From NCBI GenBank assembly GCA_001783695.1, contig MFNE01000053.1, positions 80,757-129,989 of the forward strand: 49,233 bases of DNA, written 5' to 3'. The position numbers and the translations under genes are program-made. A model generated the notes under the pieces. That model ran no database searches, had not been told where the DNA came from, and saw nothing but the letters and a program-made list of their open reading frames with translations. Origin of the DNA: Candidatus Lambdaproteobacteria bacterium RIFOXYD2_FULL_50_16. Its GTDB lineage: Bacteria; SAR324; XYD2-FULL-50-16. Below are positions 10,870 through 27,115 of the stretch, one piece after another. The first letter of the stretch is position 1. The number at the start of each line of letters is the position of its first letter.

Positions 10870-11213
10870 TCCTCTTGCTCTAAAACGAAGCGCTCGATTA
10901 ACAATTCCCGACCCGACAAAACCAGCCCGGTGCCGCCACATTGGGGACAGGCTAGGCTAAGTTCGGGGGGCTCGAATTCATGCCCACAATCTTCGCAGCG
11001 GGCCAACAAAGGTGGGGTAAGAATGGTTAGTTGGGCGTTGTTTAGTAAACTTGAAGGCCGCAAAGCCTCAAAAGCAAACTCTAGGGCCTCGGTGTTGACC
11101 CCGCTGGCTTGCCCTACTGACAAAGTCACCTCGGTGATCCTGCCACCGCCTCGGTTTTTTACCTCTTCAGATAGGCTCTCAAGTACCGACTGCATAATCG
11201 AAAGCTCGTGCAT
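10866..11213 (-). CDS. hypA: Hydrogenase nickel-insertion protein HypA
   Basis: 115 residues. It starts with MHELS, where His2 is the conserved nickel ligand of the family. Zinc is bound by two CxxC pairs in CEDCGHEF and CPQCGG (about residues 72-75 and 90-93). With HypB it delivers nickel to the hydrogenase large subunits, likely both HyaB and HoxC. It is the last gene of the minus-strand hydrogenase/maturation operon, six bases after hypD, and its stop overlaps the stop of the convergent hoxC by two bases. Confidence 0.93.
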   Translation of the reverse strand: MHELSIMQSVLESLSEEVKNRGGGRITEVTLSVGQASGVNTEALEFAFEALRPSSLLNNAQLTILTPPLLARCEDCGHEFEPPELSLACPQCGGTGLVLSGRELLIERFVLEQED

Positions 11214-11219
11214 AAAGGC

Positions 11220-12314
11220 CTATAAGGAACGGATACCAAAACGGGACCAAGAATTGCAGGTGCCTTCTGGCGAGACCATACAAGGGCCAATCGGGTTTTG
11301 GGGGTTGCAGGCTTGGCCAAAATGGCCGCAATCGGTTGGCTGTTTTTCGCCTAACATAATGCGGTGGCATTGGCAGCCAGGCGGGTGCCCTTGGGCGGGG
11401 AAGCCGGGGTCGGCGTTCAGCGCCCGCAAAGCGTCTTGGTCCCGGTAGGCCTCGCGAAGGACAAAAGCCGAATCTTCAACTAGATCAATTCCCCGCCAAA
11501 CTCCCGGCTTAAGGTCAAAAACTTGAGTGATCCAGGCCTGAGCCTTAAGGTTGCCCTCGTCCCTAACTGCGCGGGGATAGGCGTTTTTGAGTCCCGCCGT
11601 ACCTTGGGCAATCTCTTTTAGTAACATCCAAATCCCCAAAAGCACGTCTGCTGGCTCAAACCCGGCAACCACACTGGGTAACTTGTACTGCGTCTCCATA
11701 AAACGGTAGGGCTCCAAACCGGTAATAATCGCTGCATGGCCGGGCAGCAAAAAACCCCTGATAGTTTCGTCGTGAATCTCCATCAACAACCGCAAAACCG
11801 GGGGCATATAGCGGCCTGCTACCAAAAAATAGAGGTTTTTAGGCAGGCTTTGCGCGATCAAACCGGCCACACCAGCCATGGTGGTTTCAAAACCCACCGC
11901 AAAAAAAACTAAGGTTTGCGTGGGTTGTTCTTGGGCTAGTTTTAGGCAGTCGTAGGGGCTATAAACCATCCGCACCGAAGCTCCCTCCGCCTTGGCCTGG
12001 GCCAAACTCTGCCGAGAACCAGGGACCCGCAACATATCCCCAAAGGTCACCAGCGTGGTCTGGGGTTGTTTGGCCAACTGAATTGCTTGGTCAATCGCCT
12101 CTGCTGGACAGACACAAACTGGGCAGCCAGGACCGGGGATGATTTTTAGCTCCTTGGGCAATAGTTGGCGAAGACCATGCTGATTAAGGGCGTGTTCATG
12201 GCTACCACAAAGGTGCATGAGTCGCAAAGGGCCCGTCTGGGCGACTAGTTTTCCAATAGCCTCGCTTAGAGCCTGGACCGGCTCGGGGGTCCCAAAGGGA
12301 TCGGATGGATTCAT
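11220..12314 (-). CDS. hypD: Hydrogenase Fe(CN)2CO assembly protein HypD
   Basis: 364 residues from ATG 12314. The longer open frame to 12377 overlaps hypE and lacks the family start. Conserved HypD motifs are all seen: LCGSHEHAL near residue 36, PGPGCPVCVCP around 60-70, GFETTMAG, and a C-terminal cysteine-rich cluster segment (CQCHRIMLGEK...CGHFGQAC...GPCMVSPEGTC). HypD holds a [4Fe-4S] cluster and, with HypC and HypE, builds the iron-cyanide-carbonyl unit of the active site. It begins four bases after the hypE stop without a clear Shine-Dalgarno sequence, so translation is probably coupled. Confidence 0.93.
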   Translation of the reverse strand: MNPSDPFGTPEPVQALSEAIGKLVAQTGPLRLMHLCGSHEHALNQHGLRQLLPKELKIIPGPGCPVCVCPAEAIDQAIQLAKQPQTTLVTFGDMLRVPGSRQSLAQAKAEGASVRMVYSPYDCLKLAQEQPTQTLVFFAVGFETTMAGVAGLIAQSLPKNLYFLVAGRYMPPVLRLLMEIHDETIRGFLLPGHAAIITGLEPYRFMETQYKLPSVVAGFEPADVLLGIWMLLKEIAQGTAGLKNAYPRAVRDEGNLKAQAWITQVFDLKPGVWRGIDLVEDSAFVLREAYRDQDALRALNADPGFPAQGHPPGCQCHRIMLGEKQPTDCGHFGQACNPQNPIGPCMVSPEGTCNSWSRFGIRSL

Positions 12315-12318
12315 AAAA

Positions 12319-13317
12319 CTAACAAATCCGGGGCAATTGTTCACCCAGAGGCATCTCAACCAAACGCCGAGTGCCAATCTGGGTTTGAATCCACAGGGGG
12401 GCGCTTTGGCGCTCTATCACCTCACCAATAATGGCCGAATCCCGCCCCAAGGGATGGGCCTGCATAACTTTGAGTAACTTTTCAGCAGAAGCTTCTGGGC
12501 AAAAGGCCACTAGTTTCCCCTCGTTGGCCACACTCAAGGGATCAATTCCCAACATTTGCAAAGCCGCTTGAACTGGCGACTTAATTGGCAAGTCTTTTTC
12601 CTTAAGTAAAATACTCAAGCTAGAGGCGCTGGCTAGCTCGTTACCCAAGGCCGCCAAGCCCCCCCGAGTTGGGTCGCGCAGGAGGCGAATCTCGGGACAG
12701 GTCGCTAACATCGTTTCTACCAATCCATGTAAACAAGCGCAGTCGCTGATCGGCGGGGTCTCGAAGGGCAAGGACTCGCGCGCGGCCAAGATAGCCAATC
12801 CGTGTTCAGCTAGGCCGCCGTTGATCAAAAGTCGGTCCCCAACCTTAAGGGCCTTGGGCGAGAAGGGCTGGGCTAGTCGGCTCCGGCCAATTCCAGTGGT
12901 GTTAATATAAATCCCATCCCCCTTGCCCGCCTCGACTACCTTGGTGTCTCCGGTGACCACCACCACCCCAGCTTCTTTGGCGGTTTGGGCCAGAGAAGCT
13001 AATATTTTTTGCAAATCGTCATACTCGAAACCGGCCTCAATAATTAGCCCCAAACTCAACCACAAGGGCTCTGCCCCACACATGGCCAAATCGTTTACCG
13101 TGCCGCAAACCGCCAGTTTGCCGATGTTGCCCCCTGGGAAAAAAAGTGGGCTGACCACATAAGAATCAGTGGTCATTACCAAGCCTTGGCCGGGCAGGTA
13201 GGCCCCATCGTGCCCCTGGTCAAGCAACGGATTGGAAAGTGCCGGGCGGATCACTTGGTCTAAAAGCTCCTGCATCCCCCGCCCTCCGGCCCCTTGGGCC
13301 AACTCAATACGGCTCAT
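12319..13317 (-). CDS. hypE: Carbamoyl-dehydratase HypE
   Basis: 332 residues. The protein belongs to the PurM/SelD ATP-binding superfamily: AQGAGGRGMQELL at the N-terminus, DGAYL, TTDSYVVSPLFFPGGNIG, and VVTGDTKVVE for ATP and metal binding. It ends in LPRIC, the conserved C-terminal tail whose final Cys accepts carbamoyl from HypF and is dehydrated to thiocyanate, the source of the cyanide ligands. It overlaps hypC by four bases and is followed closely by hypD. HypF, its carbamoyl donor, is not encoded in this window. Confidence 0.94.
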   Translation of the reverse strand: MSRIELAQGAGGRGMQELLDQVIRPALSNPLLDQGHDGAYLPGQGLVMTTDSYVVSPLFFPGGNIGKLAVCGTVNDLAMCGAEPLWLSLGLIIEAGFEYDDLQKILASLAQTAKEAGVVVVTGDTKVVEAGKGDGIYINTTGIGRSRLAQPFSPKALKVGDRLLINGGLAEHGLAILAARESLPFETPPISDCACLHGLVETMLATCPEIRLLRDPTRGGLAALGNELASASSLSILLKEKDLPIKSPVQAALQMLGIDPLSVANEGKLVAFCPEASAEKLLKVMQAHPLGRDSAIIGEVIERQSAPLWIQTQIGTRRLVEMPLGEQLPRIC

Positions 13318-13544
13318 GAGGCAGAGTCCAGTATGTCAAACAGTTCCAATGTCTTTTTCGCTTCTTCTTTGTCCATTTTACTAATCGCGAACCCGGCATG
13401 AACGATCACAAATTCGCCTATGGCCACGTCAGGAACACAATCAAGGCAAATCTCGCGCACCATACCCCTGAAATCCACCCGCCCCACCAGAGGCTGCGAA
13501 TTAGGCGTGATGGCTAATACTTCGCCAGGGATGGCTTGGCACAT
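13314..13544 (-). CDS. hypC: Hydrogenase assembly chaperone HypC
   Basis: 76 residues, starting MCQAIPGEV: the conserved Cys2 is the iron-site ligand exchanged with the large subunit. The following GRVDFRGMVREICLDCVPD and GEFVIVHAGFAISKMD are typical of the HypC/HupF small barrel plus C-terminal helix. It forms the scaffold with HypD on which Fe(CN)2CO is assembled, then carries it to the hydrogenase precursor. Start chosen at the only suitable ATG, after GAGGAA. It lies 126 bases downstream of hyaD and overlaps hypE by four bases. Confidence 0.94.
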   Translation of the reverse strand: MCQAIPGEVLAITPNSQPLVGRVDFRGMVREICLDCVPDVAIGEFVIVHAGFAISKMDKEEAKKTLELFDILDSAS

Positions 13545-13670
13545 GGTTCCTCGTGTAATTAAAAAAAGGCTGTTTTTAGGATTTTAGTTGGTTTTTATCT
13601 TCACGAACTCCACCTGCCAAGTCTAGCCCAGAGTGGGCCTCGTGGCAAGTTGTTGGGAGGGGATCACGGT

Positions 13671-14156
13671 TTACTCCACGGTCGCAGGGGCCAGCAGCTT
13701 AGCCAAAATCTTTTCCACCTCAATTAAGAGTTGGGGCATGGCCGCTTGCACTGGTGGTGAAAAAATCATCCCCACAGGCTGGACCAATTCGACGGACATA
13801 ACCACCAAATGGGTGTCTGGCTTGTAACCCATTAATTCCGCCGTATCCATCAAGTCTTTCAGGCCAATGTCGTGTGCTGAAAGACTTGGGGGATAGTCCT
13901 GGGCGAACTTGGGCCGGATCACCCGGACAAACCCTGGCGGGTTTTGATCCAAGGTGGCATCGATCAACACTAAATGCCGGTAATCCTGTAAATCCCCTAA
14001 CAAATGAAACCCGCCAGTGCCTCCGTCTAGGAGATCGACCTTCGCGCCCCAGCCTTTGGCTTCTAAAAGCTCGACCGCTTTGGGTCCGATCCCTTCGTCT
14101 GCAAGGAGGATATTGCCTATCCCCATCACGAGGACCTCCTTTTTACCGGGCTCCAA
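13671..14156 (-). CDS. hyaD: Hydrogenase maturation endopeptidase (HyaD/HupD)
   Basis: About 161 residues from TTG 14156. I prefer this start because the first beta strand (KKEVLVMGIGN) is part of the family fold; a GTG at 14130 or ATG at 14127 behind a strong AAGGAGG would remove it. Nickel-sensing acidic and His residues are visible: Glu in NILLADEG, Asp in VLIDAT and His in LSAHDIGLKD, matching E16/D62/H93 of HybD. The enzyme cuts the C-terminal peptide off the large subunit after nickel is inserted. The target here is HyaB, which has a 15-residue tail; HoxC has none. It follows the cytochrome b gene by four bases. Confidence 0.9.
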   Translation of the reverse strand: MEPGKKEVLVMGIGNILLADEGIGPKAVELLEAKGWGAKVDLLDGGTGGFHLLGDLQDYRHLVLIDATLDQNPPGFVRVIRPKFAQDYPPSLSAHDIGLKDLMDTAELMGYKPDTHLVVMSVELVQPVGMIFSPPVQAAMPQLLIEVEKILAKLLAPATVE

Positions 14157-14160
14157 CGGG

Positions 14161-14844
14161 CTACCCCTTTTTCTGAAAAATAAACTTCCACCCACCCACC
14201 ATGCTCGAAAGCACCCCGCGGGCCTCCACATAGTCGTGATAAGCAACTAAGTAAACGTGAACAATCACAAACAATGCGTAAAACCACATGGCCACGTGAT
14301 GCCAGTACCGCAAGGTCATTTCAGACTCAAAAAAGCCCCCAAACCAAGCAAAAAATCCGGGGATCAGGGAGCTACTCATGGGCGCGTAGAGCGCGAAGCC
14401 GGTTAAGATGGAGAAGATACTCGCTCCAAACAATACCAAGTAGATCATCGAGGCCAAGGCGTTGTGACCCACGGACTTGATCTCGCCCTGTTTAGCCATA
14501 AAAAGGTCGATTACCAAAACCTGCCCTACCTCCTGCCACTGCGCTTTGGTGACCGGCAAAAAGGTATTCCAGCGGGCGTATTGGTTGCCCACAAAGGCCC
14601 AATAGACCCGATATACCCAATTAAATAAAAACAGGTAAGCCGAGCCAAAGTGGATAAACCGCACCGTACCAAACCAGTATCCGTCGTAAGCCTCCAGGTT
14701 GGTTAAAAGCGCTGGAGGGTTACCGATTAAATAGCCAGTGGCCGCCAGCGCCACTAACGCCAGGGCGTTGATCCAGTGGAAGATCCGAACCGGGACCTCC
14801 CAGACATACACCGGCTTAACAATATGGACTTCTTGGTTTGCCAT
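14161..14844 (-). CDS. hyaC: Ni/Fe-hydrogenase b-type cytochrome (HyaC/HupC)
   Basis: 227 residues. Four membrane helices are visible (about 22-42, 62-84, 130-153 and 180-203). Candidate haem-ligand histidines are H23 (RIFHWINA), H65 (RFIHFGSAY), H182/H183 (RYWHHVAMW), H196 and H203 (IVHVYLVAYHDY). The protein anchors the small-subunit tail and passes electrons from the periplasmic hydrogenase to the quinone pool. It starts after a strong AGGAGGGG Shine-Dalgarno sequence, nine bases past hyaB, in the usual small-large-cytochrome order. A b-type partner is what group 1 respiratory uptake hydrogenases use. Confidence 0.93.
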   Translation of the reverse strand: MANQEVHIVKPVYVWEVPVRIFHWINALALVALAATGYLIGNPPALLTNLEAYDGYWFGTVRFIHFGSAYLFLFNWVYRVYWAFVGNQYARWNTFLPVTKAQWQEVGQVLVIDLFMAKQGEIKSVGHNALASMIYLVLFGASIFSILTGFALYAPMSSSLIPGFFAWFGGFFESEMTLRYWHHVAMWFYALFVIVHVYLVAYHDYVEARGVLSSMVGGWKFIFQKKG

Positions 14845-14853
14845 TTGCCCCTC

Positions 14854-16572
14854 CTAAAAGGTGTTAAGCTGATGTTTATGTTCGCCCTTTTCATCATACA
14901 AATGTACTGCACAAGCCAAACAAGGATCGAAGCTGTGGATCGTGCGGATAATCTCTAAAGGTTGGTCCGCATTGGCCACGGGGGTTCCAATCAAAGAGGC
15001 TTCGAAGGCCGAGCGTTGATCCTTGGCATCTCTGGGGCTGGCGTTCCAAGTGGTGGGGACGACCAATTGGTAATTCTCGATTTTGTGATCCTTAATCCGC
15101 ACCCAATGCGCCAATGCGCCCCTTGGAGCTTCCGAAAGACCAAACCCTTTGGCCTCCGAGGCCCAAGTCTCAGGCTTAAATTTAGCCGAATTGTGCACTC
15201 GGTCATCGCCAGACTTGAGGTTGCCAATTAGCTTGGCATAATCGTCAAGCGCCCACTGGGCAATCAAGACCGACTCCAAGCCCCGCGCGGCGGTGCGGCC
15301 CAAGGTGCTAAAGAGCGCTTCTGGGCCTACGCCCAGTTTACCCAAAGCCATACCAACTACCTCTTTGATATCGTGACTGCCTGAAGCATAACCAACCAGC
15401 ATCCGAGACAGCGGGCCTACCTCGACCGCGTGACCTTTCCAACGTGGGGTTTTAACCCAAGAATATTTGCCTTCGACATTTAGGTTTTCATAGGGTGGCT
15501 GAGGACCGGTGTAGTTAAACTCGGTTTCACCATCATAAGGGTGTAGCGCCTTGTCGTCGCCTCCTTGGTAGCTATACCAAGAATGGGCAATCTCTTCAGT
15601 AATCTCTTGAGGGTTGGTGGGGTCCACCGGATGCACCTGGGAAAGGTCGCGATTCAAAATAACCCCGCGAGGCAACCGCAAGCCAGAGGCATCATTATAA
15701 CTGCCCGTCGGTTGGTCGCCGTAAGCCATATAGTTGGTCAACCCACCGCCAATCGCCGCCCAGTCCGTATAGTAAGGGGCCACGGCCAATAGATCGGGGA
15801 TGTAAACCTGATCGATAAACACTTTGGCATCCTTTAATAAGGAGTGAACGTGGTTGAGCCGCTCCATGTTGATCGCGTTAACCTCGTCCAGGTTAATCGC
15901 GCAAGGCATACCACCCACCACATAGTTAGGGTGGGGGTGTTTACCTCCAAAAATCGCCTGAATCTTGACCACTTCCTTCTGCCATTCTAAGGCCTCTAAG
16001 TAGTGCGCCACTGCCAAAAGGTTGACCGCTGGCGGCAGCTTGTAGGCCTTGTGCCCCCAATAACCATTAGCAAAAACACCTAACTGGCCAGACTGGACAA
16101 ATTTCTTAACCCGGTTTTGCACATCTGCAAAATAACGGGGGCTCGACTTAGGCCAGTTGGATATCTTTTTTTGAATCTCACTAGTTTCTTTGGGGTCCGC
16201 AGACAAAGCACTAACCACATCAACCCAGTCCAGGGCGTGCAAGTGGTAAAAATGCACCACATGGTCTTGCATATAAATCGCGGCAAACATCAGGTTGCGG
16301 ATCAGCTCTGCGTTAGGCGGAATGTCGATACCCAAAGCATTTTCCACCGCTCTGACCGAGGTCAAGCTGTGCATACTAGTGCAAACCCCGCAAACCCGGC
16401 CCACCAAGGCCCAAGCATCTCTAGGATCCCGGCCTTTTAAAATAATTTCCAAGCCTCGAACCATAGTCCCTGAGGACCAGGCATCGCTGATTTTACCATC
16501 GGTAATTTCCGCTTCGATACGCAGGTGGCCTTCGATACGGGTAACTGGGTCAACAACAATACGCTTAACCAT
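14854..16572 (-). CDS. hyaB: Uptake [NiFe] hydrogenase large subunit (HyaB type)
   Basis: 572 residues from ATG 16572, preceded by GGAGG; the extra eight residues of the longer frame are not part of the family start (VKRIVVDPVTRIEGHLRIE). Nickel ligands: C61 and C64 in GRVCGVCTSMH, with the usual His68, and C551 and C554 in DPCLACAVH. The protein continues 15 residues beyond His557, the peptide removed by HyaD after nickel insertion. It is carried across the membrane with the Tat-tagged small subunit. Its start overlaps the small-subunit stop by eight bases. Together with the cytochrome it oxidises H2 on the periplasmic side. Confidence 0.95.
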   Translation of the reverse strand: MVKRIVVDPVTRIEGHLRIEAEITDGKISDAWSSGTMVRGLEIILKGRDPRDAWALVGRVCGVCTSMHSLTSVRAVENALGIDIPPNAELIRNLMFAAIYMQDHVVHFYHLHALDWVDVVSALSADPKETSEIQKKISNWPKSSPRYFADVQNRVKKFVQSGQLGVFANGYWGHKAYKLPPAVNLLAVAHYLEALEWQKEVVKIQAIFGGKHPHPNYVVGGMPCAINLDEVNAINMERLNHVHSLLKDAKVFIDQVYIPDLLAVAPYYTDWAAIGGGLTNYMAYGDQPTGSYNDASGLRLPRGVILNRDLSQVHPVDPTNPQEITEEIAHSWYSYQGGDDKALHPYDGETEFNYTGPQPPYENLNVEGKYSWVKTPRWKGHAVEVGPLSRMLVGYASGSHDIKEVVGMALGKLGVGPEALFSTLGRTAARGLESVLIAQWALDDYAKLIGNLKSGDDRVHNSAKFKPETWASEAKGFGLSEAPRGALAHWVRIKDHKIENYQLVVPTTWNASPRDAKDQRSAFEASLIGTPVANADQPLEIIRTIHSFDPCLACAVHLYDEKGEHKHQLNTF

Positions 16573-17671
16573 GATGGCCTCCAGTGTGTTCCTCAATACG
16601 GTCTTTGATTTCAGTGCGTTTGGTTAGGTTGGCCGCCACTAAATGGGCACCCACACCCACGCCAGTAGCTACAGCCAAACCAGCGCCGATTTTGTCGGCG
16701 GTACCTTCGATAGCAAAACCTTTGGTGTCTTTTAAGTGTTCATAGAGACTGCCGTTGTCAAAATAACCGGCCTCGCTGCAACCGATACAACCATGGCCCG
16801 ATTGGATCGGGAAACTGGTCCCTTCGTTCCACTTGGTTACGGCGCAAGCGTTGTAGGTAACCGGGCCACGGCAACCCATTTTGTAGAGGCAGTAGCCCTT
16901 CTTGGCGTTTTCGTCGTCGAAGGATTCCACAAAGAGTCCGGCGTCGAAGTTAGGCCGCCGGTAACAGGTGTCGTGGATTCGCCGAGAGTAGAAGGCTTTG
17001 GGGCGGCCATGCGCATCGAGGGCCGGGAGTTTGCCAAAGGTTAAGATATGAGTAACCACCCCGGCCATTACATCGGCGATTGGAGGGCATCCGGGCACGC
17101 TAATCAAAGGGGTCGAGCCCACAAACTTTTTAACCGGGGTGGCCTGGGTTGGGTTGGGCTTAGAGCCCTGGACGCAACCGGCAAAAGCGCAGTTACCCCA
17201 GCCAACCACAGCGAAGGCGTCTTTGGCCGCCTCCTCCACAATACTCTTGGCCGTTCGCCCGCCAATCACACAATGAATGCCATTGTCTGCCAATGGAATC
17301 GAGCCCTCGACCATTAAGATATATTTGCCCTTAAACTCCTCCATGGTTTTATGGAGGGCCGCCTCGGCTTGATGACCAGAAGCCGCTTGCAGGGTTTCGG
17401 TATAGTCTAAGGAAACCATATCCAGGACCACATCGGCGACAATCGGGTGCGAAGACTTAATAAAGGACTCACTGCAACAGGTGCACTCTTGGAAATGCAA
17501 CCAGATTACCGGGGGGCGGGGGTTGTTTTCTAGGGCCCAAACCACTTGATCCAACTGGGAAGAAGCGATGCCGCTGGCTGCGGCAATCCAGCCGCAAAAC
17601 TTGATAAAATCTCGGCGGGAATAACCCTTTTCTTGGGCTTGTTCCCAAATAGTGGGACGATGGTTTTTCAT
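16565..17671 (-). CDS. hyaA: Uptake [NiFe] hydrogenase small subunit, oxygen-tolerant type (HyaA)
   Basis: 368 residues from ATG 17671, which overlaps the hypB stop (ATGA) behind AGAGG; the longer open frame is inside hypB. Residues 1-45 are a twin-arginine signal (RRDFIKFCGW). Proximal-cluster ligands are C63, C66, C161 and C195. Two supernumerary cysteines, C65 (ECTCCSES) and C166 (CAFAGCVQ), match the extra cysteines of E. coli Hyd-1 and Ralstonia MBH, which bind the [4Fe-3S] cluster that gives oxygen tolerance. Distal ligands are H233, C236, C261 and C267; medial ligands are C276, C295 and C298. A C-terminal membrane helix (about 328-349) precedes a His-rich end. It is a group 1d-like uptake enzyme. 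Confidence 0.95.
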   Translation of the reverse strand: MKNHRPTIWEQAQEKGYSRRDFIKFCGWIAAASGIASSQLDQVVWALENNPRPPVIWLHFQECTCCSESFIKSSHPIVADVVLDMVSLDYTETLQAASGHQAEAALHKTMEEFKGKYILMVEGSIPLADNGIHCVIGGRTAKSIVEEAAKDAFAVVGWGNCAFAGCVQGSKPNPTQATPVKKFVGSTPLISVPGCPPIADVMAGVVTHILTFGKLPALDAHGRPKAFYSRRIHDTCYRRPNFDAGLFVESFDDENAKKGYCLYKMGCRGPVTYNACAVTKWNEGTSFPIQSGHGCIGCSEAGYFDNGSLYEHLKDTKGFAIEGTADKIGAGLAVATGVGVGAHLVAANLTKRTEIKDRIEEHTGGHHG

Positions 17672-18462
17672 ACTGCCTCTTGATGCCGTTGTGCTTGGAT
17701 TGCTTCTTTTTGTAGCCAGTTGGCCAGTGCTTCTAGGCCCTCGCCGGTTTTTGCAGAAACCGCAAATACCGGCAAATTGGGTTTGAGTTTGCGGACGCTG
17801 GCTAAACAAGCGTCCAGGTCGAAGTCTAGGTAAGGGATCAGGTCAATTTTGTTAATCACTAAGAGGTCTGCGGTTAGAATCAAGTCAGGGTATTTAGCTG
17901 GCTTGTCGTCGCCTTCCGTTGCTGAAACCAAGGCGATTTTAACCGCTTCGCCTAAGTCAAAAGCGGTGGGGCAGACCATGTTGCCCACGTTTTCGATCAT
18001 TACTACCGAATTGGGTGTCGGATTTAGTTTGTGAAGCCCTAGGTGAACCATTTGAGCGTCCAAGTGGCAGGCGGAGCCGGTGTTGATCTGCACCACGGGT
18101 GCGCCTGCTTTTTTGATCCGGTCTGCGTCGTTTTGAGTTGCCTGGTCTCCCTCAAGTACATAAAGGGGCAATCTCAACCAGTTTTCCTCGATTAACGCCT
18201 CTAAAAGTCGGGTTTTTCCTGAGCCTGGGGCGCTGATCCAGTTACAGGCAAAGATGCCCTCGCTCTGGAAATGCTCCCGGTTGTGGGCTGCTTGGTGGTC
18301 GTTGCGGCCTAAGATAGCCTTTTTAAGGCTAAACTCCTGGCCTGCTGGTTTGTCGTGGTGGTGCCCGTGAGAATGGTCATGTCCATGCTCGTGATGGGTC
18401 TCAGGGGCCTTGCCATCAATTAGGGGGGTGACCCCTTCGATGCAGCCGCAGTCTCGACACAT
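17668..18462 (-). CDS. hypB: Hydrogenase nickel GTPase HypB
   Basis: 264 residues. The N-terminus has CRDCGC (high-affinity metal site) and a His-rich stretch (about residues 22-37, alternating His, Gly and Asp) for nickel storage. The SIMIBI-type GTPase domain shows the P-loop SAPGSGKTRLLE, EGD, the metal-site Cys in GSACHLDA, and the base-recognition motif VINKIDLI. It supplies nickel with HypA. It sits directly upstream of hyaA with a four-base overlap, so maturation and structural genes share one transcript. TAGGGGAT before the ATG provides the ribosome-binding site. Confidence 0.94.
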   Translation of the reverse strand: MCRDCGCIEGVTPLIDGKAPETHHEHGHDHSHGHHHDKPAGQEFSLKKAILGRNDHQAAHNREHFQSEGIFACNWISAPGSGKTRLLEALIEENWLRLPLYVLEGDQATQNDADRIKKAGAPVVQINTGSACHLDAQMVHLGLHKLNPTPNSVVMIENVGNMVCPTAFDLGEAVKIALVSATEGDDKPAKYPDLILTADLLVINKIDLIPYLDFDLDACLASVRKLKPNLPVFAVSAKTGEGLEALANWLQKEAIQAQRHQEAV

Positions 18463-18470
18463 AGTATCCC

Positions 18471-18635
18471 CTACCGCCGACCAAACAACAAATAAGCCCC
18501 TACCCCTAGGGCTAGTGCCACTAAAAATTCGGTCACCCCATGTAGATGGAACCCATCAAGGGCCGCGTGTCCAGGGTGGGCTAGGGCTAGACTCGGAGCA
18601 AAACCGATCAGCAGGAGAGGAAGGTGTTTTTTCAT
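18471..18635 (-). CDS. Small secreted HPGH-motif membrane protein, first gene of the hydrogenase operon
   Basis: 54 residues from ATG 18635; a longer frame upstream runs through the promoter and is rejected. A signal peptide (about 1-19, ending ALA) is followed by HPGH, DGFHLHG and one membrane helix (about 34-50) with a basic end. The first mature residue would be the His of HPGH. HupE/UreJ nickel permeases begin their mature part with a similar HxGH motif, but this protein has only one further helix, so it is not a transporter by itself. Its place as first gene behind the hydrogenase promoter suggests periplasmic nickel handling. That role is inferred from position and histidines only. Confidence 0.6.
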   Translation of the reverse strand: MKKHLPLLLIGFAPSLALAHPGHAALDGFHLHGVTEFLVALALGVGAYLLFGRR

Positions 18636-18720
18636 TATCAAGACCAACTTGGGGTTAAAAACAATCGGGAGCGCCAATTGGGACTGGACCCATAGCCCTA
18701 GCTTTCTGGCCCTGGTATTC

Positions 18721-18737
18721 TGCAACAAGCAGACCAA
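18721..18737 (-). promoter_or_regulatory. Sigma-54 promoter of the hydrogenase operon
   Basis: On the minus strand the bases read TTGGTCTGCTTGTTGCA: TTGG at -24 and TTGCA at -12, with exactly ten bases between the invariant GG and GC. The start point would be near 18710, about 75 bases before the first gene. An NtrC-type activator gene lies immediately upstream. Confidence 0.75.
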
Positions 18738-18791
18738 CTTTTACTGCATTGTTTATATTGATGTACACAAATGGGCGCCAGGAATAAAAAC

Positions 18792-18823
18792 AAACATAGT
18801 TTACACTAATGGAAACTATGTTT
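18792..18823. promoter_or_regulatory. Perfect inverted repeat, likely activator (HoxA) enhancer site
   Basis: AAACATAGTTT and AAACTATGTTT form perfect 11-bp arms around a 10-base spacer. The centre lies about 97 bases upstream of the predicted sigma-54 start point, where enhancer sites of NtrC-type activators usually sit. It could also act as a terminator for hoxA, since on the minus strand it is followed by TTGTTTTTATT; the stem is AT-rich, so both roles are possible. Confidence 0.6.
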
Positions 18824-18830
18824 TCATTGC

Positions 18831-20267
18831 TTAATCTAAAGAGCTACCCTGGTCGGCAATTTCGATTTGGTACCTAAGCAATTTATTGCGCAACCCTACC
18901 CGCGAAAGTCCCAACTCTGTAGCAATCTTGGATTTATGGTTCCCATGTTTGCGAATCGCTTCCTCGATCAAATTCCGCTCTAACTCCCCAACCTGCTGGG
19001 CTAAACTCCCACCTCTAAGTGGAGCCTGGACCAGCCCGCGCAGTTTTGGAGAAAGATCTTGGGCTTCAATCTTTTTTCCTTGCGCCAAAACCAAACACCT
19101 TTTGACCTCGTTTTGCAGTTCGCGCACGTTTCCTGGCCAGCTAAAGGCCCTCATTAGCCCCATCGCCTCTTTCGAAAAACCAGAAATCTTTTTACCAAAG
19201 CTGATAGCGAGGCTGTTTAAGAGGTAATTGGCGATTAGTTCAATGTCGTCAGGCCGTTGGCGCAGAGGAGCGAGGTTGATATTAACCGTGGCCAATCGGT
19301 AATAGAGATCAGCGCGAAACCGCCCTGCGCGGACCTCTTCCTCTAAATTTCGATTAGTGGCGGCAACAATCCGAATATTGACTTGGCGACTTTTATTACT
19401 GCCTAAGGGGCGTAGCTCACCCTCTTGCAAAACCCGTAATAGTTTAACCTGAAAACTTGGGGTCACATCGCCAATTTCATCGAGAAAAACCGTGCCTCCA
19501 TCGGCCTGTTCAAGCAGTCCAATATGCTCGGAAACCGCCCCAGTAAAAGCCCCCTTCACATGCCCAAAAAGCTCACTGATTAAAAACTCGTCTGATAAAG
19601 CGGCGCAGTTTTCCGCCACAAAGGGGCGCTCAGCCCGGTGGGAGCCATAGTGTAGCGCCCGGGCAAACATTTCCTTGCCGGTCCCCGACTCCCCGGTAAT
19701 TAATACGGATACATCAAAAGGCGCGACCTGGGTTAGTTGCTCGCAAGCGTGGTTTAGTGGGGAATTTTGGCAGCGAAAAATCGAATCAAGCTGAAATCGT
19801 TGGGCTAGCTTTTTTTTGGTTTGCCGATTGCTGTGTTCCACTTGTTCGGTGGTTGCCCGTGTCTCGCTGGCTAAAAGCGCGTTTTCCGCCTGCAGGTCAT
19901 AGAGTTTAACTAGGTTTTTAATAATTAATAGGAGGTTACTCGGGTGCCAAGGTTTGGCAATAAATTGGTAAATACCCCCGTTGTTAACCCCTTCAATAAT
20001 GTCGTCCACATCGGAATAAGCCGAGATCAGCAAGCGAATGGGTGAGGGCCAACGCCGCCTTACTTCGGCTAAAAACGCCACCCCTGAGGTGCCCGGCATG
20101 CGGTTGTCGCATAAGATAACCTTGATCCGGTATTCCTCTAAAAAACGGAAGGCTTCTTCCGTGTTTCGGGCGGCTAGCACCTCGAAATCGGTGTCTAAGG
20201 TGCGGCTCATCGCCTCTAAAGCGCGAACCTCGTCGTCCACTATTAGGATTCGGTCTAATACACTCAT
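18831..20267 (-). CDS. hoxA: NtrC-type response regulator for hydrogenase (HoxA/HupR)
   Basis: 478 residues in three domains. The receiver (1-120) has acidic D11/D12, phospho-acceptor Asp54 (LCDNRMPG) and Lys105. The AAA+ domain has Walker A (GESGTGKE, from 192), GAFTGA for sigma-54 contact (239-244), Walker B (FLDEIG, 261-266) and arginine-finger region LYYRL. A Fis-type helix-turn-helix closes the protein (NHKSKIATELGLSRVGLRNKL). It is most likely the partner of HoxJ and acts at the sigma-54 promoter just downstream. In characterised HoxA/HupR systems the unphosphorylated form is the active one, so H2 lowers kinase action. Its own promoter may be at 20315-20343. Confidence 0.9.
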   Translation of the reverse strand: MSVLDRILIVDDEVRALEAMSRTLDTDFEVLAARNTEEAFRFLEEYRIKVILCDNRMPGTSGVAFLAEVRRRWPSPIRLLISAYSDVDDIIEGVNNGGIYQFIAKPWHPSNLLLIIKNLVKLYDLQAENALLASETRATTEQVEHSNRQTKKKLAQRFQLDSIFRCQNSPLNHACEQLTQVAPFDVSVLITGESGTGKEMFARALHYGSHRAERPFVAENCAALSDEFLISELFGHVKGAFTGAVSEHIGLLEQADGGTVFLDEIGDVTPSFQVKLLRVLQEGELRPLGSNKSRQVNIRIVAATNRNLEEEVRAGRFRADLYYRLATVNINLAPLRQRPDDIELIANYLLNSLAISFGKKISGFSKEAMGLMRAFSWPGNVRELQNEVKRCLVLAQGKKIEAQDLSPKLRGLVQAPLRGGSLAQQVGELERNLIEEAIRKHGNHKSKIATELGLSRVGLRNKLLRYQIEIADQGSSLD

Positions 20268-20386: not shown

Positions 20387-21973
20387 TTAAATGGCCAAGA
20401 GGTTATTTAAAACCTCGAATAATTGACTAGGTTTTAGCGGTTTGTAAATCACCGCAGCAAAGCCAAATTTTTGACTTTGCTCGTTTACAGAAAACGCATC
20501 TGCCGTAACCGCCACCACGGGAATATGTTTGGTTTTTTCCCCTTCTTTAAGTATCCTAGTGGCTTCGAACCCGTCCATCAAAGGCATCTTTAGGTCCATC
20601 AAGATCACATCGACCTTTAATTGGTTGGCCTTTTCAATCGCCTCTAAACCATCACTGGCAACCTCGACCTGGTAGGGATAATTGTGCAAAATTTGGATAA
20701 TCAGCTCACTATTAATCGCCATGTCGTCCACCACCAAGACCAATTTGTTTTGGGGGAACAGGGGGCAGTAGGTTTCAGAAGTCTCTGATTTTTCAGCTTT
20801 AGCTGTGGCGATCCCGCTAAATTTACAGGTAAAATGCGAACCTTTTCCAGGTACACTTTCAAGGGTTAAACTCCCTCCAAAATGTTCGGTTAATTTTTGA
20901 ACAATATTCAGACCCAGCCCTGTACCTTCGATAAATTTAGCCCCTTGTTTAACCTGGACAAAGGGATCAAAAATATTTCCCTGCAACTCTATAGGAATGC
21001 CCACTCCTGAATCCTCAACCGATATAGTCAAGCAAACTGTCTTAGAATCTGCCCCTTCTGGCTCGACTTTAATAACCAGTCGCACAAAACCAGATTCCGT
21101 GAACTTCAAGGCATTTCCTATTAAGTTAAACAGGATTTGATTGATCCGCAAACGGTCAAACATTATCCAGGGAGGGTTTTGCGGCTGAAAATCTACCTGT
21201 AACTCCAGCCCTTTTTTTTCGGCAATCAGACTAAACAACCCCTTCATCTCATCGGCCAGTTCAATCAAACTAATCGGAACCGAAAGCACCGAAAGTACCC
21301 CCGACTCTATCTTGGCTAAGTCAAGGATATCGTTAATAATCCGCATCAACGACTGCCCGGCTTTATGGATATATTGAAGAAACCGCTTTTGATCCTCCCC
21401 TTGGGCGTCTTCGAGCAGAATCTCGGCAAAGCCTAAAACCGCATTCATCGGGGTGCGGATTTCATGGCTCATATTGGAAAGAAACTGGGTTTTGGCATAA
21501 TTGGCCATTTTGGCTTCTTCCATGGCATTAAAGGCTTCCTGACGGGCCAAAACCAATTCCTGGTTGGCCCATTCCAGCGCCCTTTGCTGGTTAAAAAGAG
21601 CCAAAAACACACTAACCTTACTAACTAAAATATCCGGGTTAATTGGTTTAAATAAATAATCCACTGCTCCGACCTTGTAGCCTTCAAAAACGTGAACATC
21701 TTCTTTGTTAATCGCCGTTATAAAGATGATGGGAATAGTTTTGGTTTTAGGATTGTGCCTGATTAATTCAGCGGTTTGGTAACCATCGAGGATAGGCATT
21801 TGCACATCTAAAAGGATCAGCGCAAATCGGTGAGTTAACAAGGCTTCTAGCGCAGCTTCCCCAGAGGTAACCTTGACTAGCTCGGCGTCAACCTCACTTA
21901 AGATCTCTCCCATCACCACTAGGTTTTGGGGCAAATCGTCCACGATCAGAATCTTGGCTTTTGTTTTATCCAT
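20387..21973 (-). CDS. REC-histidine kinase-REC hybrid protein
   Basis: 528 residues, no membrane segment. The N-terminal receiver has Asp56 (LLDVQMP) and Lys109. A short coiled linker leads to a HisKA domain with His170 (FLSNMSHEIRTPMN), then an ATPase domain with NLIGNALKF, DSGVGIP and GTGLGLNIVQ. The C-terminal receiver has its Asp in ILMDLKMPLMDG and Lys in YKPLKP. The input receiver means this kinase is probably controlled by phosphorylation from another protein, likely the 1154-residue kinase whose stop it overlaps by eight bases. No HPt or DNA-binding output is present. It is the last gene of a three-gene signalling operon. Confidence 0.88.
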   Translation of the reverse strand: MDKTKAKILIVDDLPQNLVVMGEILSEVDAELVKVTSGEAALEALLTHRFALILLDVQMPILDGYQTAELIRHNPKTKTIPIIFITAINKEDVHVFEGYKVGAVDYLFKPINPDILVSKVSVFLALFNQQRALEWANQELVLARQEAFNAMEEAKMANYAKTQFLSNMSHEIRTPMNAVLGFAEILLEDAQGEDQKRFLQYIHKAGQSLMRIINDILDLAKIESGVLSVLSVPISLIELADEMKGLFSLIAEKKGLELQVDFQPQNPPWIMFDRLRINQILFNLIGNALKFTESGFVRLVIKVEPEGADSKTVCLTISVEDSGVGIPIELQGNIFDPFVQVKQGAKFIEGTGLGLNIVQKLTEHFGGSLTLESVPGKGSHFTCKFSGIATAKAEKSETSETYCPLFPQNKLVLVVDDMAINSELIIQILHNYPYQVEVASDGLEAIEKANQLKVDVILMDLKMPLMDGFEATRILKEGEKTKHIPVVAVTADAFSVNEQSQKFGFAAVIYKPLKPSQLFEVLNNLLAI

Positions 21974-24900
21974 GGGCTTTTGGCTCGGTTGATTTGTTCA
22001 CCCAAGCCTTGATCATCCCTACTAATAAATCTCCATCTAAGGGCTTGCTTAAATAATCGTCGGCCCCAGCGTCGAGGCATTTTTTGCGGTCTTCGCGCAT
22101 CGCCTTGGCGGTAACCGCGATGACCGGCAAATGAGCCAATTTAGGAATTTGGCGAATAGCCTGCATCGCTTGATAACCATCCATTATTGGCATCATAATA
22201 TCCATTAAAACCAGGTCAACTAGCGGATCGTTGTCCAAGAGGTCCAAGGCCTCTTTCCCATTTTTGGCGTGCAAAGTTTCTGCTTCATTTTCCACCAACA
22301 CCGAAGAGATCACAAAAATATTTTTGATATCGTCATCTACAATTAAAATTCGCTTTCCCTTAAGACTACTTCCTGTTTTTGGTTTAGGCAGCGGTGTCGC
22401 AGGCTCATCCAAAGCCCATTTGAGTTCGTCTAAAAGACGCTCGCGAGAAAAAGCAGTTTTAACAATAATACTTTTTGCTTGGGCCTGCAAACGGTCTTCT
22501 TCTAAAGAGCTTAGCTCTTTACCGGTGTAAACAATCACCGGCACGCGAACCCCACGGGTTTGCATCCGGCTGAAAAGTTCGGTGCCGTCCTGGTTTTGTA
22601 GGCGTAGGTCGAGTAGCACTAAATCTATTTGGTGGTGCCGCAAGTGTTCTTCGGCCTCTTCTAAGTTTTTGGCCAACAAAACCTCTAGGTCCAGTTCGCT
22701 AGCCAAAGCTACCACTACTTCGGCCTCTTGGGTATTGTCTTCGACCACCAAAAGCCGATGTTTTTTGGTCACCATTTTCGAAGTCAAGGTAGATACTAAG
22801 GTGTCAAAATCGCGGTCTTGCAGGGGTTTAGTCCAAAATCCTAGGCTGTCTAGCTTTTGGGTCTCTGGGGTTTGGTCCTGGGCGGTGACAATAAAAATGG
22901 GTAAATGTTGACTCGCTTTTTGACTGCGTAACTGGGCAAACACATCAAGACCGTTCATATCTGGTAACCCTAAATCTAAAACCGCGGCGTCAAAACGGCT
23001 TTTAGCCAGTTGTTCAAACGCCGCTTTGCCTGAAGATACATGCACAAAAGTGAAGCCCCGTCCTTCTAACTTTTCCCCTAAATATTGAGCGAAAAGAAGG
23101 TCGTCTTCGATGATCAACACCCGACCTTGAGTATCCGACGGCTTAGTCGCTTTAGGCCTCACTGGCTGAGGTGGTAGGGCGGCCGCATTGATAGCCAGAG
23201 GTAGGCGAAGCCTAAATACGCTTCCCTGGTCCACCTCGGATTCGAGCTCGATTTGCCCGCCCATTAAATGCACCAACTCGCGGCTAATCGAAAGCCCTAA
23301 GCCCGTACCGCCATATTGCCGACTGGTGCTGCCGTCTGCCTGCTGGAAGGCTTCAAAAATAAGCTCCTTTTTGTCTTTTGAAACCCCAATACCCGTGTCA
23401 ATCACCTCTAACACAAAGGGCAGGTTGCCTGCTTCGCGTCTGGATTTAATGGCGATTTGACCTTGGTTAGTAAATTTCAAGGCGTTTGAAAGCAGGTTCC
23501 GAAGCACCTGCCCTAGTCGTGAACGGTCATTTACCAGAGCCCCATTAAATTGATCCTCAACCACTAATTTTAGTCCTTTTTCCTCTGCTTGTAGTGAAAA
23601 CAAGTCCTGGACCGAGCTCATAAATTCCTTAGATTCCAAGGTCTCGGCGAAAAGCTCCATTTTTCCAGCTTCTACTTTGGAAAGGTCTAAGATATCGTTG
23701 ATTAAACGTAACAATTCGTTGCCCGAATCTTCAATAATTTTAAACAGCCGGACCTTGTCTTCGGTAAAAGTATTGTCTTTATTTCGGGCTAATTGCTGGC
23801 TTAGGAGAATGATGGCGTTGAGCGGGCTTCGAAGCTCGTGGGACATGTTAGCCATAAACTCTGATTTATAGCGGCTTGTATTAGTCAGCTCCTCGGCTTT
23901 TTGGTTTAAGGCTGATTGGGCCATTTGCAGTTCTTCGTATTGCTGGGTCAATTCCTCTTTTGACTCGCGAAGCATCTGCTGTTGCTCTTCCATCTGCTGG
24001 TTCGCTTCCTCCATTTGCTGATTCGCTTCTTCAAGCTGTTGCTGCTGAATCATCAATTGGCGGTTGGTTTGGTTGAGCTCTTCGGTCTGCATCTGCAACC
24101 GCTCGTTGGCTTCTTGGCTATCTTGCAGGAGATAACCAATTTTATTTTGCTGTTGCTGACTAAAAATGAAGTTGCCCACTAGGTGGGCGGCTTCTTCTAA
24201 AAAAGCTTTTTCAAAATCTTTAAAGTGCCGGACCAGCCCTAGCTCCATCACCCCGATAATTTGATTATCATGAACCACCGGAACCCCAAAAATCTCTATC
24301 GGGGCATATTTCGAACTGGAGGTCTCGACCAACAATGGGTGTTGCCCGACAAGTAACATGCTGAACGATTTGGCGTCTTTAGCAACCTGCCCAACAATCC
24401 CCTCACCTAAAGCGATTTCAGACTTAAAATTAAGAGAATAGCTCAAGGCAAAACTACCGGTTAACTTCAGCTTTCCTTCAGTGTTGAGCAAATATAAGGT
24501 CCCCACCCCAGCACCAAGGTGCCTCGCCAAGACCTCTATTGCTAGGTCAGCCAAATTTTGACGCTCAACCTCGGCTAAAAGCGCCCCATTTAACCGAGCG
24601 AGGCCGTCTTTATACCAATTTTGTTGGGCCGACTCTTTAAGACTTCTCCTTTGAAAATGGACCAGACTGTTGATCGCTCCAACTAACATCCCCAACTCGT
24701 CGGTACTTTGAGTTTTTTTAAACTTAAGATTTCCCGCCTCGATTTCTGCAATCCAATCGGTCATCACCTTTAAGGGCTGGGTAAGACTTCGGATCAAGCT
24801 CCAAGCAATCAGTAGTACAAAAACCAAAAGTCCAATTAAGATACTTATATTTAGCCGGAAGGCTTGATCCCGCTGCTCTTGGGCCTGTTGCAAAAAATTA

Positions 24901-25430
24901 TTCGCGTTAGCAAAAGCAAAGGTTTTAATCGATTCAGCCTGTTCGATAAAATATTCGACCAATACCTTGTCATCCCCCATAAACAAGGCTAATGCCGCCT
25001 CTCTGTCCCCTTGACGGAGCAAGGAATAAATCTCACGCCGAAGCTCCCCCCAATGGATAAAGGTGGCTTTAGTCTCTAGAATCCCAGTTTTATCCCCTAA
25101 ATAGTTGCTTAAAACCACTTCGAAACGGTCCAATACTTCCTGTTCCTTCAAAGAACTGCGTTTGAACAGGGTTTGTAATTCCTTTGGATCTTCTGAATGG
25201 AGCATCACCCGCAAATCCCGCTCCAGAATCAAAACTCCTGATTCAATCTCGCGGATATTGTAGCCTACTATTAAGGGATGATCATAAAGCGACTGGGTTA
25301 ATTCACTTAGCGTAAAAATATTGTATAAGCTTATTATTCCAAGCGTCGAAGTGATCAACATTACCAAAGTAAACCCAATGACTAAGCGGGGACCAACGCC
25401 AAACTTTCTGATAATTTGTTCAAACTTCAT
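21966..25430 (-). CDS. Membrane hybrid kinase: HAMP-GAF-HK with three receivers
   Basis: 1154 residues. Membrane helices at about 14-35 and 196-214 frame a helical periplasmic sensor of the four-helix-bundle type. A HAMP domain (about 215-268), a GAF domain (about 290-420), and a long Gln/Glu-rich coiled coil with three near-identical heptads of the form EEANQQM (about 470-490) follow. HisKA has its His near 529 (FMANMSHELRSPLN). The ATPase has NLLSNALKF, DTGIGV and GTGLGLSISREL. Three receivers then follow in series, each with a candidate Asp (AVLDLGLPDMNG, VLLDLRLQNQDG, VLMDIMMPIMDG). Only the third looks fully standard (YLSKP). It overlaps the CheB-CheR gene by four bases. The ligand is unknown. 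Confidence 0.9.
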   Translation of the reverse strand: MKFEQIIRKFGVGPRLVIGFTLVMLITSTLGIISLYNIFTLSELTQSLYDHPLIVGYNIREIESGVLILERDLRVMLHSEDPKELQTLFKRSSLKEQEVLDRFEVVLSNYLGDKTGILETKATFIHWGELRREIYSLLRQGDREAALALFMGDDKVLVEYFIEQAESIKTFAFANANNFLQQAQEQRDQAFRLNISILIGLLVFVLLIAWSLIRSLTQPLKVMTDWIAEIEAGNLKFKKTQSTDELGMLVGAINSLVHFQRRSLKESAQQNWYKDGLARLNGALLAEVERQNLADLAIEVLARHLGAGVGTLYLLNTEGKLKLTGSFALSYSLNFKSEIALGEGIVGQVAKDAKSFSMLLVGQHPLLVETSSSKYAPIEIFGVPVVHDNQIIGVMELGLVRHFKDFEKAFLEEAAHLVGNFIFSQQQQNKIGYLLQDSQEANERLQMQTEELNQTNRQLMIQQQQLEEANQQMEEANQQMEEQQQMLRESKEELTQQYEELQMAQSALNQKAEELTNTSRYKSEFMANMSHELRSPLNAIILLSQQLARNKDNTFTEDKVRLFKIIEDSGNELLRLINDILDLSKVEAGKMELFAETLESKEFMSSVQDLFSLQAEEKGLKLVVEDQFNGALVNDRSRLGQVLRNLLSNALKFTNQGQIAIKSRREAGNLPFVLEVIDTGIGVSKDKKELIFEAFQQADGSTSRQYGGTGLGLSISRELVHLMGGQIELESEVDQGSVFRLRLPLAINAAALPPQPVRPKATKPSDTQGRVLIIEDDLLFAQYLGEKLEGRGFTFVHVSSGKAAFEQLAKSRFDAAVLDLGLPDMNGLDVFAQLRSQKASQHLPIFIVTAQDQTPETQKLDSLGFWTKPLQDRDFDTLVSTLTSKMVTKKHRLLVVEDNTQEAEVVVALASELDLEVLLAKNLEEAEEHLRHHQIDLVLLDLRLQNQDGTELFSRMQTRGVRVPVIVYTGKELSSLEEDRLQAQAKSIIVKTAFSRERLLDELKWALDEPATPLPKPKTGSSLKGKRILIVDDDIKNIFVISSVLVENEAETLHAKNGKEALDLLDNDPLVDLVLMDIMMPIMDGYQAMQAIRQIPKLAHLPVIAVTAKAMREDRKKCLDAGADDYLSKPLDGDLLVGMIKAWVNKSTEPKAHG

Positions 25431-27115
25431 AGCATTCCAGCTTGTGGGGTAAACTTTTTTTGGAAAATTTTAAGTCGAGGTTCTAATTGGCTGAAGTTTG
25501 ATTGGTGCGGTGAGGTCAAGGATTCGCATTGTCCCAAAAGTAAAAATCCCCCTCGCACCAAAGAGGAGTGGACCAGAGAAAGGACTTTTGTTTGCAAACT
25601 AGGTTGGAAATAGATCATTACATTACGTAACAAAACCAATTGAAATTCATTCATTACGGAGTCACTTACCAAATTATGTTGAAAAAATAGAACCTTTTTG
25701 CGAATTTGCGGGACTATTTCATAAAAACCCGCATGCGGGATCAAATAGTCTTCGAAATTTTTTGCGCCCCCAGCTTTAAGGTAGTTGTCTTTATAGCTGG
25801 CCAATCCTTCCTCTGGGATCAATCCGTTTTGCGCTTGGGCTAGAATGGTTTGATTAAAATCAGTCGCATAGATCTGGGTTTTTTCGAGCAGTCCCGCTTC
25901 CTCTAATAAAATAGCCAACGAAAAAGGCTCTTCCCCACCAGCACAACCGGCGCACCAGACCTTACAATGGGTAAAGGTTTCTAAATATCTAAAAACCCGC
26001 TCCCTTAGGCCAGTAAGTTGCTCGGGCTCGCGGAAAAAACTGCTAACATTAATAGAGCTATCATCTAAAAAGTCTTCAAAAAGCGCGGGGTCGGTTAAAA
26101 GTTCTTTTTGAAAATGAGCAAGGTTCGAATGGCCGTTTCGCCCCATAGAGATACTAACCCGGCGCGACATACTGGTCCAATCGTATTCTTTGAAATTGGT
26201 CCCATAAACCTGCTTTACTTGCTCCAACAAGGATTCGATCCCAGGAAGGATCTTTGCCACTTCGCTGGGGGTCAAAATATCATTTAATGCGTTAACTATT
26301 TCTTCATTTTTTATCACCCGGTGACACTCGCCACTATCGACAATCGCTTTGGGTAAACTAGAGGCAGTGGCTTGGGATGGATCTTCGGCCCAGATTAACG
26401 ATCCACATTGTTTTAGGGTTTTAATGGCGCCCGCGCCATCTTGTCCGTACCCGGTAATCGTCAAGGCCAAAAGGTTATCGAGAAATTCCATGGCTAAACT
26501 TTTATAGGCCACCTCAATTGAGGGCCTCGCTCCGGCAACCCTTAGCCCTTTGGTTAAATAAATCACGCCACCAGAAACGACCAAATGCGAATCAGCGGGA
26601 GCCAGATATAGGTATCCAGGTTCAATGGGGGTACCCGAACTGGGCTCAGTTACCTTATAGGTCGTACTCAGTTGTAAAATGCTTTTTAAGTCAGATTTAC
26701 GCCCAGGCTGCTGGTGTAAAATCAAAAAAATACTTACCTCTTGCAGCTCTAGGCCAGGCAATACCGACTTAAGCCATTCAATACTTCCGGTGCTGCCCCC
26801 AATGACCAGGGCTCGAATATGGGGCTTGAGGGTTTGGGTTACAAGAGGGCGGGTCCAACTAGCGTCAAAACCCAGTTGCTGCAAATAAAGCCAAAGTCGG
26901 CGGTTACCCACCTTAAACTTTAATCGGTCTTTATGGTTGGCCAAATCAATTAATATCGTGCGCGAAAGCTCGGAGACATTTACCAGCGTCACTTCAAGCA
27001 GCCCTTGGGTCGAGTGCACGCCTGTTAAAAATTGGGTATCCTCTGCACCGGAGGTGATCGGACCTTCTAAGTACAACTTGGTGCCCTGCGGGCTTTGGTT
27101 AACTAGCTGTAACAA
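25427..27115 (-). CDS. CheB-CheR fusion protein with STAS-like N-terminus
   Basis: 562 residues from TTG 27115, preceded by AAAGG; no better start is open. Residues 1-95 look like a STAS/anti-sigma-antagonist-type domain. About 98-290 is a CheB methylesterase domain with a likely catalytic triad of Ser108 (IGGSTGS), His134 (LILHQQ) and Asp226 (TGYGQDGAGAI). About 300-555 is a CheR methyltransferase with the SAM motif CAGCAGGEEPFSLAI and LLRNVMIYF. There is no receiver, unlike classical CheB, so control must come from the N-terminus or from partners. It heads an operon with two hybrid kinases. No chemoreceptor, CheA or CheW is encoded nearby, so its methylation target is unknown. Confidence 0.85.
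   Translation of the reverse strand: MLQLVNQSPQGTKLYLEGPITSGAEDTQFLTGVHSTQGLLEVTLVNVSELSRTILIDLANHKDRLKFKVGNRRLWLYLQQLGFDASWTRPLVTQTLKPHIRALVIGGSTGSIEWLKSVLPGLELQEVSIFLILHQQPGRKSDLKSILQLSTTYKVTEPSSGTPIEPGYLYLAPADSHLVVSGGVIYLTKGLRVAGARPSIEVAYKSLAMEFLDNLLALTITGYGQDGAGAIKTLKQCGSLIWAEDPSQATASSLPKAIVDSGECHRVIKNEEIVNALNDILTPSEVAKILPGIESLLEQVKQVYGTNFKEYDWTSMSRRVSISMGRNGHSNLAHFQKELLTDPALFEDFLDDSSINVSSFFREPEQLTGLRERVFRYLETFTHCKVWCAGCAGGEEPFSLAILLEEAGLLEKTQIYATDFNQTILAQAQNGLIPEEGLASYKDNYLKAGGAKNFEDYLIPHAGFYEIVPQIRKKVLFFQHNLVSDSVMNEFQLVLLRNVMIYFQPSLQTKVLSLVHSSLVRGGFLLLGQCESLTSPHQSNFSQLEPRLKIFQKKFTPQAGML

Follow-up and report, generated by a model that had tools for sequence, protein, structure and literature searches.

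Genes and predicted control elements of the locus

The window, that is, the whole stretch of 49,233 nucleotides analysed here from Candidatus Lambdaproteobacteria bacterium RIFOXYD2_FULL_50_16, contains an uptake hydrogenase operon, genes for a regulatory-type hydrogenase and a PAS histidine kinase, and a gene for a sigma-54 activator. Its relevant features are given below in window positions; negative numbers count from the predicted transcript start.

7132-8460, plus strand: hupT/hoxJ-like PAS histidine kinase (domains; 38-41% identity to kinases beside HupUV in L044, L046 and L047)
8414-9430, plus strand: hupU/hoxB-like regulatory hydrogenase small subunit (51-54% to the same three)
9427-10869, plus strand: hupV/hoxC-like regulatory hydrogenase large subunit (42-46% to the same three)
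10866-14246, minus strand: hupD, hypC, hypE, hypD and hypA, in minus-strand order (Pfam/NCBIfam, frames, homologues)
14161-14844, minus strand: hupC, b-type cytochrome (TIGR02125)
14854-16596, minus strand: hupL, large subunit, true start probably inside the frame (PF00374)
16565-17809, minus strand: hupS, uptake hydrogenase small subunit, true start probably inside the frame (TIGR00391)
17668-18462, minus strand: hypB (TIGR00073)
18471-18634, minus strand: first frame of the operon, a 54-aa membrane or exported peptide (weak match to DUF6732, E 0.0059, below the family cut-off)
18721-18737, minus strand: predicted sigma-54 promoter TTGGTCTGCTTGTTGCA, -24 GG and -12 GC (read directly)
18788-18806, no strand: weak second operator-like dyad AAACAAACATAGTTTACAC, centre 18797 (-87), 1.8 bits, function putative
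18792-18823, no strand: perfect inverted repeat made of the cores of two dyads (read directly, genome pattern search, folding)
18809-18827, no strand: predicted strong HoxA/HupR operator ATGGAAACTATGTTTTCAT, centre 18818 (-108), top matrix score
18831-20267, minus strand: hoxA/hupR, with receiver, sigma-54-interaction (AAA+) and Fis-type HTH domains (Pfam, tree, recognition helix)

The gene hupD was called by Pfam and NCBIfam, hypE and hypD by Pfam, and hypC and hypA by frame reading and homologues in relatives; the frame at 13671-14246 is longer than hupD proper. The 54-aa peptide begins like a signal sequence and carries the motif AHPGH, and as a short query it gave zero matches in the hydrogenase loci of five relatives. 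Directly upstream of hoxA, the minus strand encodes a response-regulator histidine kinase, a large apparent hybrid kinase frame and a CheB/CheR-fusion-like frame (20387-27115).

Read on the minus strand, 18737-18721 is TTGG-N8-TTGCA with ten bases from GG to GC, just as a previous sequence-only reading of this DNA had described it. The C of the -12 GC lies at 18722, which puts the predicted start at 18710. The pattern TGG-N8-TTGCW has six matches in 98 kb (both strands together), and these counts give an expectation of about 0.01 in the relevant 165 bp. The element thus combines -24 and -12 boxes in the GG-N10-GC arrangement, in a genome that encodes rpoN; the -24 box is imperfect and weak (TGGTCTG vs TGGCACG). 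A sigma-70 promoter scan over 18400-19000 found none, and Rfam gave zero matches.

The adjacent gene is, by its sequence, a true HoxA/HupR. The sequence-only reading had recognized an NtrC-type activator with a GAFTGA motif, and both the translation, in which this sigma-54 contact motif is visible, and the Pfam domains agree. Further, the maximum-likelihood tree places the protein in the HoxA/HupR clade with support of 100/100, together with Cupriavidus necator HoxA (L211) and HupR of a Rhodobacter relative (L215) and apart from the NtrC-type proteins of its own phylum. The nearest named relatives are 46-54% identical and located in hydrogenase clusters. The recognition helix LGLSRVGLR is common to the window protein and nearly all family members, and that of the phylum's paralogues differs (for example, LGISERALR). 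The nearest NtrC-type proteins of the phylum were considered as HoxA orthologues and rejected because of their identity of about 40%, their different helix and their separate clade.

The inverted repeat, 18792-18823, sits between the stop codon of this activator gene and the operon's first reading frame and reads AAACATAGTTT-ACACTAATGG-AAACTATGTTT. The perfect 11-bp arms, separated by N10, and the midpoint about 97 bases upstream of the start correspond to what the sequence-only reading had reported. The arms lengthen to 14 nt at 93% within the window, and their centres lie at -87 (18797) and -108 (18818). The repeat is unique in the 3.14-Mb genome even at three mismatches (a reversed control pattern gave 0 matches), and no near-exact 32-bp palindrome was found elsewhere in the genome or in the related loci scanned. 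Each arm is a dyad in its own right, AAAC-N3-GTTT. This arm-internal symmetry, missed before, turns out to be the key to the palindrome.

A dyad motif upstream of hupS

We derived a motif from the hupS upstream regions of HoxA-bearing proteobacteria, with the window excluded. The conserved unit is a dyad of 17-19 bp with the consensus TGGAAA-N5-TTTCCA. It occurs with at most two mismatches in 20 of 33 upstream regions, where a Markov model predicts 1.15, and with at most one mismatch in eight (0.15 expected); two of the matches are exact, six have one mismatch and twelve have two (0, 0.15 and 1.0 under the model), and because the regions are related, these statistics overstate their independence. 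The hupS upstream regions of Paraburkholderia have no good match. Motif discovery from random seeds recovered this dyad as well; its log-likelihood ratio was 310, whereas shuffled sets reached 91, 120 and 122. This answers only partly the bias that arises from the motif having first been spotted by eye.

Relative to the start that the sigma-54 element predicts, the main sites cluster at -131/-132 (median -132). Of all offsets for a second copy, 32 bp downstream alone is strongly enriched (z 6.6); such pairs are frequent, not universal. The dyad is also present upstream of hupS in genomes where hoxA is not adjacent. Retention of the site upstream of orthologous operons had been proposed as a check on the sequence-only reading, and the 17-19 bp dyad is indeed found there in other HoxA-bearing genomes. 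Strong sites were also seen away from hupS, at 4348 and 4380 in L209, 3678 in L208, 2886 and 2917 in L200 and 15756 in L210; some are paired 31-32 bp apart, and they probably belong to promoters of further hydrogenase-related operons.

When the window is scored with the matrix trained without it, 18809-18827 ranks first among 49,215 positions with 17.4 bits, and it keeps this rank in 19 of 20 retrainings on half of the promoters. The next-best position reaches 13.7 bits (14173-14191, within the hupC/hupD overlap, probably a chance match). The window thus carries an above-background match at the expected place. This strong dyad consists of the right arm of the palindrome and 3 bp on either side, which supply the outer contacts TGG...TCA. 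For the left arm, the score is 1.8 bits (rank 108 of 49,215) vs 17.4 for the right, and the weak dyad lies 21 bp from the strong one, that is, two helical turns away on the same face of DNA. No second copy of the motif is found at +32 or -32 of the strong site, and the 32-bp pairing is consequently missing in the window. Because the right arm matches the motif strongly and the left arm poorly, we suggest that the palindrome arises from two near-palindromic 11-bp cores, a good predicted operator at -108 and a poor one at -87.

The motif was also scored in further loci as controls. Five relatives keep the hydrogenase without HoxA; in the 500 bp before their hupS genes the best scores are 0.6-4.1 bits, and in four of these loci none of 67,532 positions reaches 17.4 bits. 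Within C. necator pHG1, a stretch of 25 kb has its top match 227 bp upstream of hoxF, followed by a second site at a distance of exactly 32 bp (195); the training set did not include this stretch but did include the plasmid's hoxK promoter, which makes this a partly independent control. Binding of HoxA to the hoxF promoter has been reported (PMC10073562). The pHG1 hoxK promoter, for which HoxA binding is likewise reported, lacks a good match. Another match, of 16.9 bits, is located directly before hoxN within the hox cluster (L211/L226). Genome-wide, the pattern with at most one mismatch has 15 sites in the genome of the window, no more than the 20 of a reversed control; the pattern alone is therefore not specific, and no regulon is inferred from it.

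Competing explanations of the inverted repeat

Very probably, the region between hoxA and the operon combines a HoxA/HupR enhancer, built of 17-bp dyads, with the sigma-54 promoter of the hydrogenase operon. Against this assignment speak the weak -24 box TGGTCTG, the spacing of 21 bp in place of the usual 32 bp and the poor match of the left arm, as well as the want of a good match before pHG1 hoxK and Paraburkholderia hupS and the low specificity of the loose pattern. The sequence-only reading had arrived at the same regulator, promoter and upstream site, and in these respects it stands; its view of the whole 32-bp repeat as the binding unit does not, since the conserved unit is 17-19 bp long. 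A single HoxA site of 32 bp would account for the perfect symmetry of the two arms. Elsewhere, however, the arm itself is the centre of symmetry rather than the midpoint between the arms, and the loci scanned hold no close copy of the 32-bp repeat, so that we regard a single long site as highly improbable.

The repeat begins 7 bp past the stop codon of hoxA, and in minus-strand RNA it would form an 11-bp hairpin (-10.6 kcal/mol) followed by the T-rich GUUUUUAUU. It might hence be nothing more than an intrinsic terminator of hoxA. Yet only two of the 11 stem pairs are G-C, so that the stem is far from G+C-rich, and a standard terminator scan was silent. Persistence of the palindrome downstream of hoxA genes had been named as an observation that would favour a terminator over an operator; in 27 other HoxA loci, nothing above 7.7 bits occurs within 200 bp after hoxA, and, as described above, the dyad is found upstream of hupS also where hoxA is not adjacent. 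Because HoxA-less relatives lack the site and other genomes lack it after hoxA, termination alone is insufficient, and we consider it very unlikely as the sole function. A dual use is compatible with the operator assignment: the strong dyad would serve HoxA, and the complementarity of the left arm would be kept for a hairpin that terminates hoxA. The left arm pairs perfectly over 11 bp despite the 1.8 bits of its dyad, and the T-rich tail and the hairpin energy point the same way. On the other hand, the stem is AT-rich, the complementarity may simply follow from two near-palindromic operators, and a second case is not known. The arm pairing may thus also form a weak hoxA terminator, but dual use as an explanation of the repeat seems to us rather unlikely.

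Finally, the dyad could be bound by a regulator other than HoxA, for the genome encodes about 25 further proteins with similar sigma-54 activator domains. The motif, however, tracks HoxA and is absent in the close hydrogenase-bearing relatives without it, and the recognition helix differs in the paralogues examined; a different regulator is therefore very unlikely.

A possible circuit, its origin and its relatives

Our model of the HoxA-dependent promoter starts from what the letters themselves provide, namely a promoter-like element, an operator-like dyad, the co-occurrence of both with HoxA, and the family and recognition helix of the regulator. HoxA/HupR dimers would bind the 17-bp dyad; the strong copy in the window would be TGGAAACTATGTTTTCA at -108. 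The weaker copy lies at -87, two helical turns nearer the promoter and on the same DNA face. Bound activator would then remodel the sigma-54 polymerase presumed to sit at 18737-18721, and transcription would begin near 18710 and proceed into the small gene, hypB, hupS, hupL and hupC. As in the characterized HupT/HupUV/HupR circuit, the HupT-like kinase would phosphorylate HoxA and thereby keep it off until HupUV binds H2. In the known systems, H2 on HupUV halts phosphorylation by the kinase, leaving an unphosphorylated activator that drives sigma-54 transcription; activity of unphosphorylated HoxA/HupR is known for C. necator and Rhodobacter capsulatus (PMC5133592, PMC10073562).

The components for such sensing are encoded in the window. 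The three proteins of 7132-10869 are 38-54% identical to HupT, HupU and HupV of Rhodoferax, Herbaspirillum and Hydrogenophaga, and hoxA is thus encoded together with HupT/HoxJ-like and HupUV/HoxBC-like proteins. The HupV-like protein ends with CMQCQVH, without a C-terminal extension. Among 51 other genomes of the phylum examined, none has a HoxA or HupV orthologue of comparable similarity, and five keep the hydrogenase (HupS identity 66-76%). The simplest reading is that the sensor cassette (HupTUV, HoxA) was laterally acquired, because the phylum relatives lack it, though some of them share the hydrogenase operon.

The HupT/HupUV/HupR system of R. capsulatus resembles the window in its kinase, regulatory hydrogenase and NtrC-type activator acting over an uptake hydrogenase operon (PMC5133592). 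HoxJ/HoxBC/HoxA of C. necator pHG1 consists of orthologous parts, and its hoxF promoter has two motif dyads 32 bp apart (PMC10073562); it differs from the window, which has a 21-bp spacing and hoxA immediately before the operon, and its hoxK promoter lacks a good match. In Acidithiobacillia, a 2025 paper describes a HupR motif found with MEME, comparative like ours and upstream of hupSL, in a case that differs by its group 2 hydrogenase and the lack of HupT; the same paper states that no position weight matrix was known for HupR (PMC12194929). Our search of the literature, mostly outside subscription journals, turned up no consensus for the binding site of HupR or HoxA.

For HupR of R. capsulatus, the given site is TTG-N5-CAA, which differs in letters from TGGAAA-N5-TTTCCA. 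We did not find TTG-N5-CAA in the related Fuscovulum promoter, nor upstream of the promoter in four plasmid-borne hydrogenase promoters; Bradyrhizobium has a single match at -31, probably by chance. Enhancers of NtrC are likewise 17-bp dyads upstream of sigma-54 promoters, in pairs about three helical turns apart, but their letters, of the TGCACC-N5-GGTGCA type, differ from those of the HoxA motif. The circuit itself is already known; its operator consensus appears not to have been described in the literature we searched.

Taken together, we tentatively propose that same-face pairs of TGGAAA-N5-TTTCCA represent a general, so far undescribed HoxA/HupR operator, and that an acquired HupTUV/HoxA cassette, missing in relatives, put this operator and a sigma-54 promoter before the lineage's own operon, in a compact form with 21-bp spacing that overlaps a hoxA terminator. 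This combined proposal is possible, but we hold it with some doubt. HupR/HoxA circuits serve in hydrogen biosensors, and a consensus backed by many proteobacteria (about 30 here), with preferred position and paired spacing, would let HoxA regulons be predicted in any genome. It would also give the HoxA/HupR family a testable general recognition sequence. The window would then be a case of one lineage's hydrogenase operon coming under the control of a sensor cassette that is missing in its relatives.
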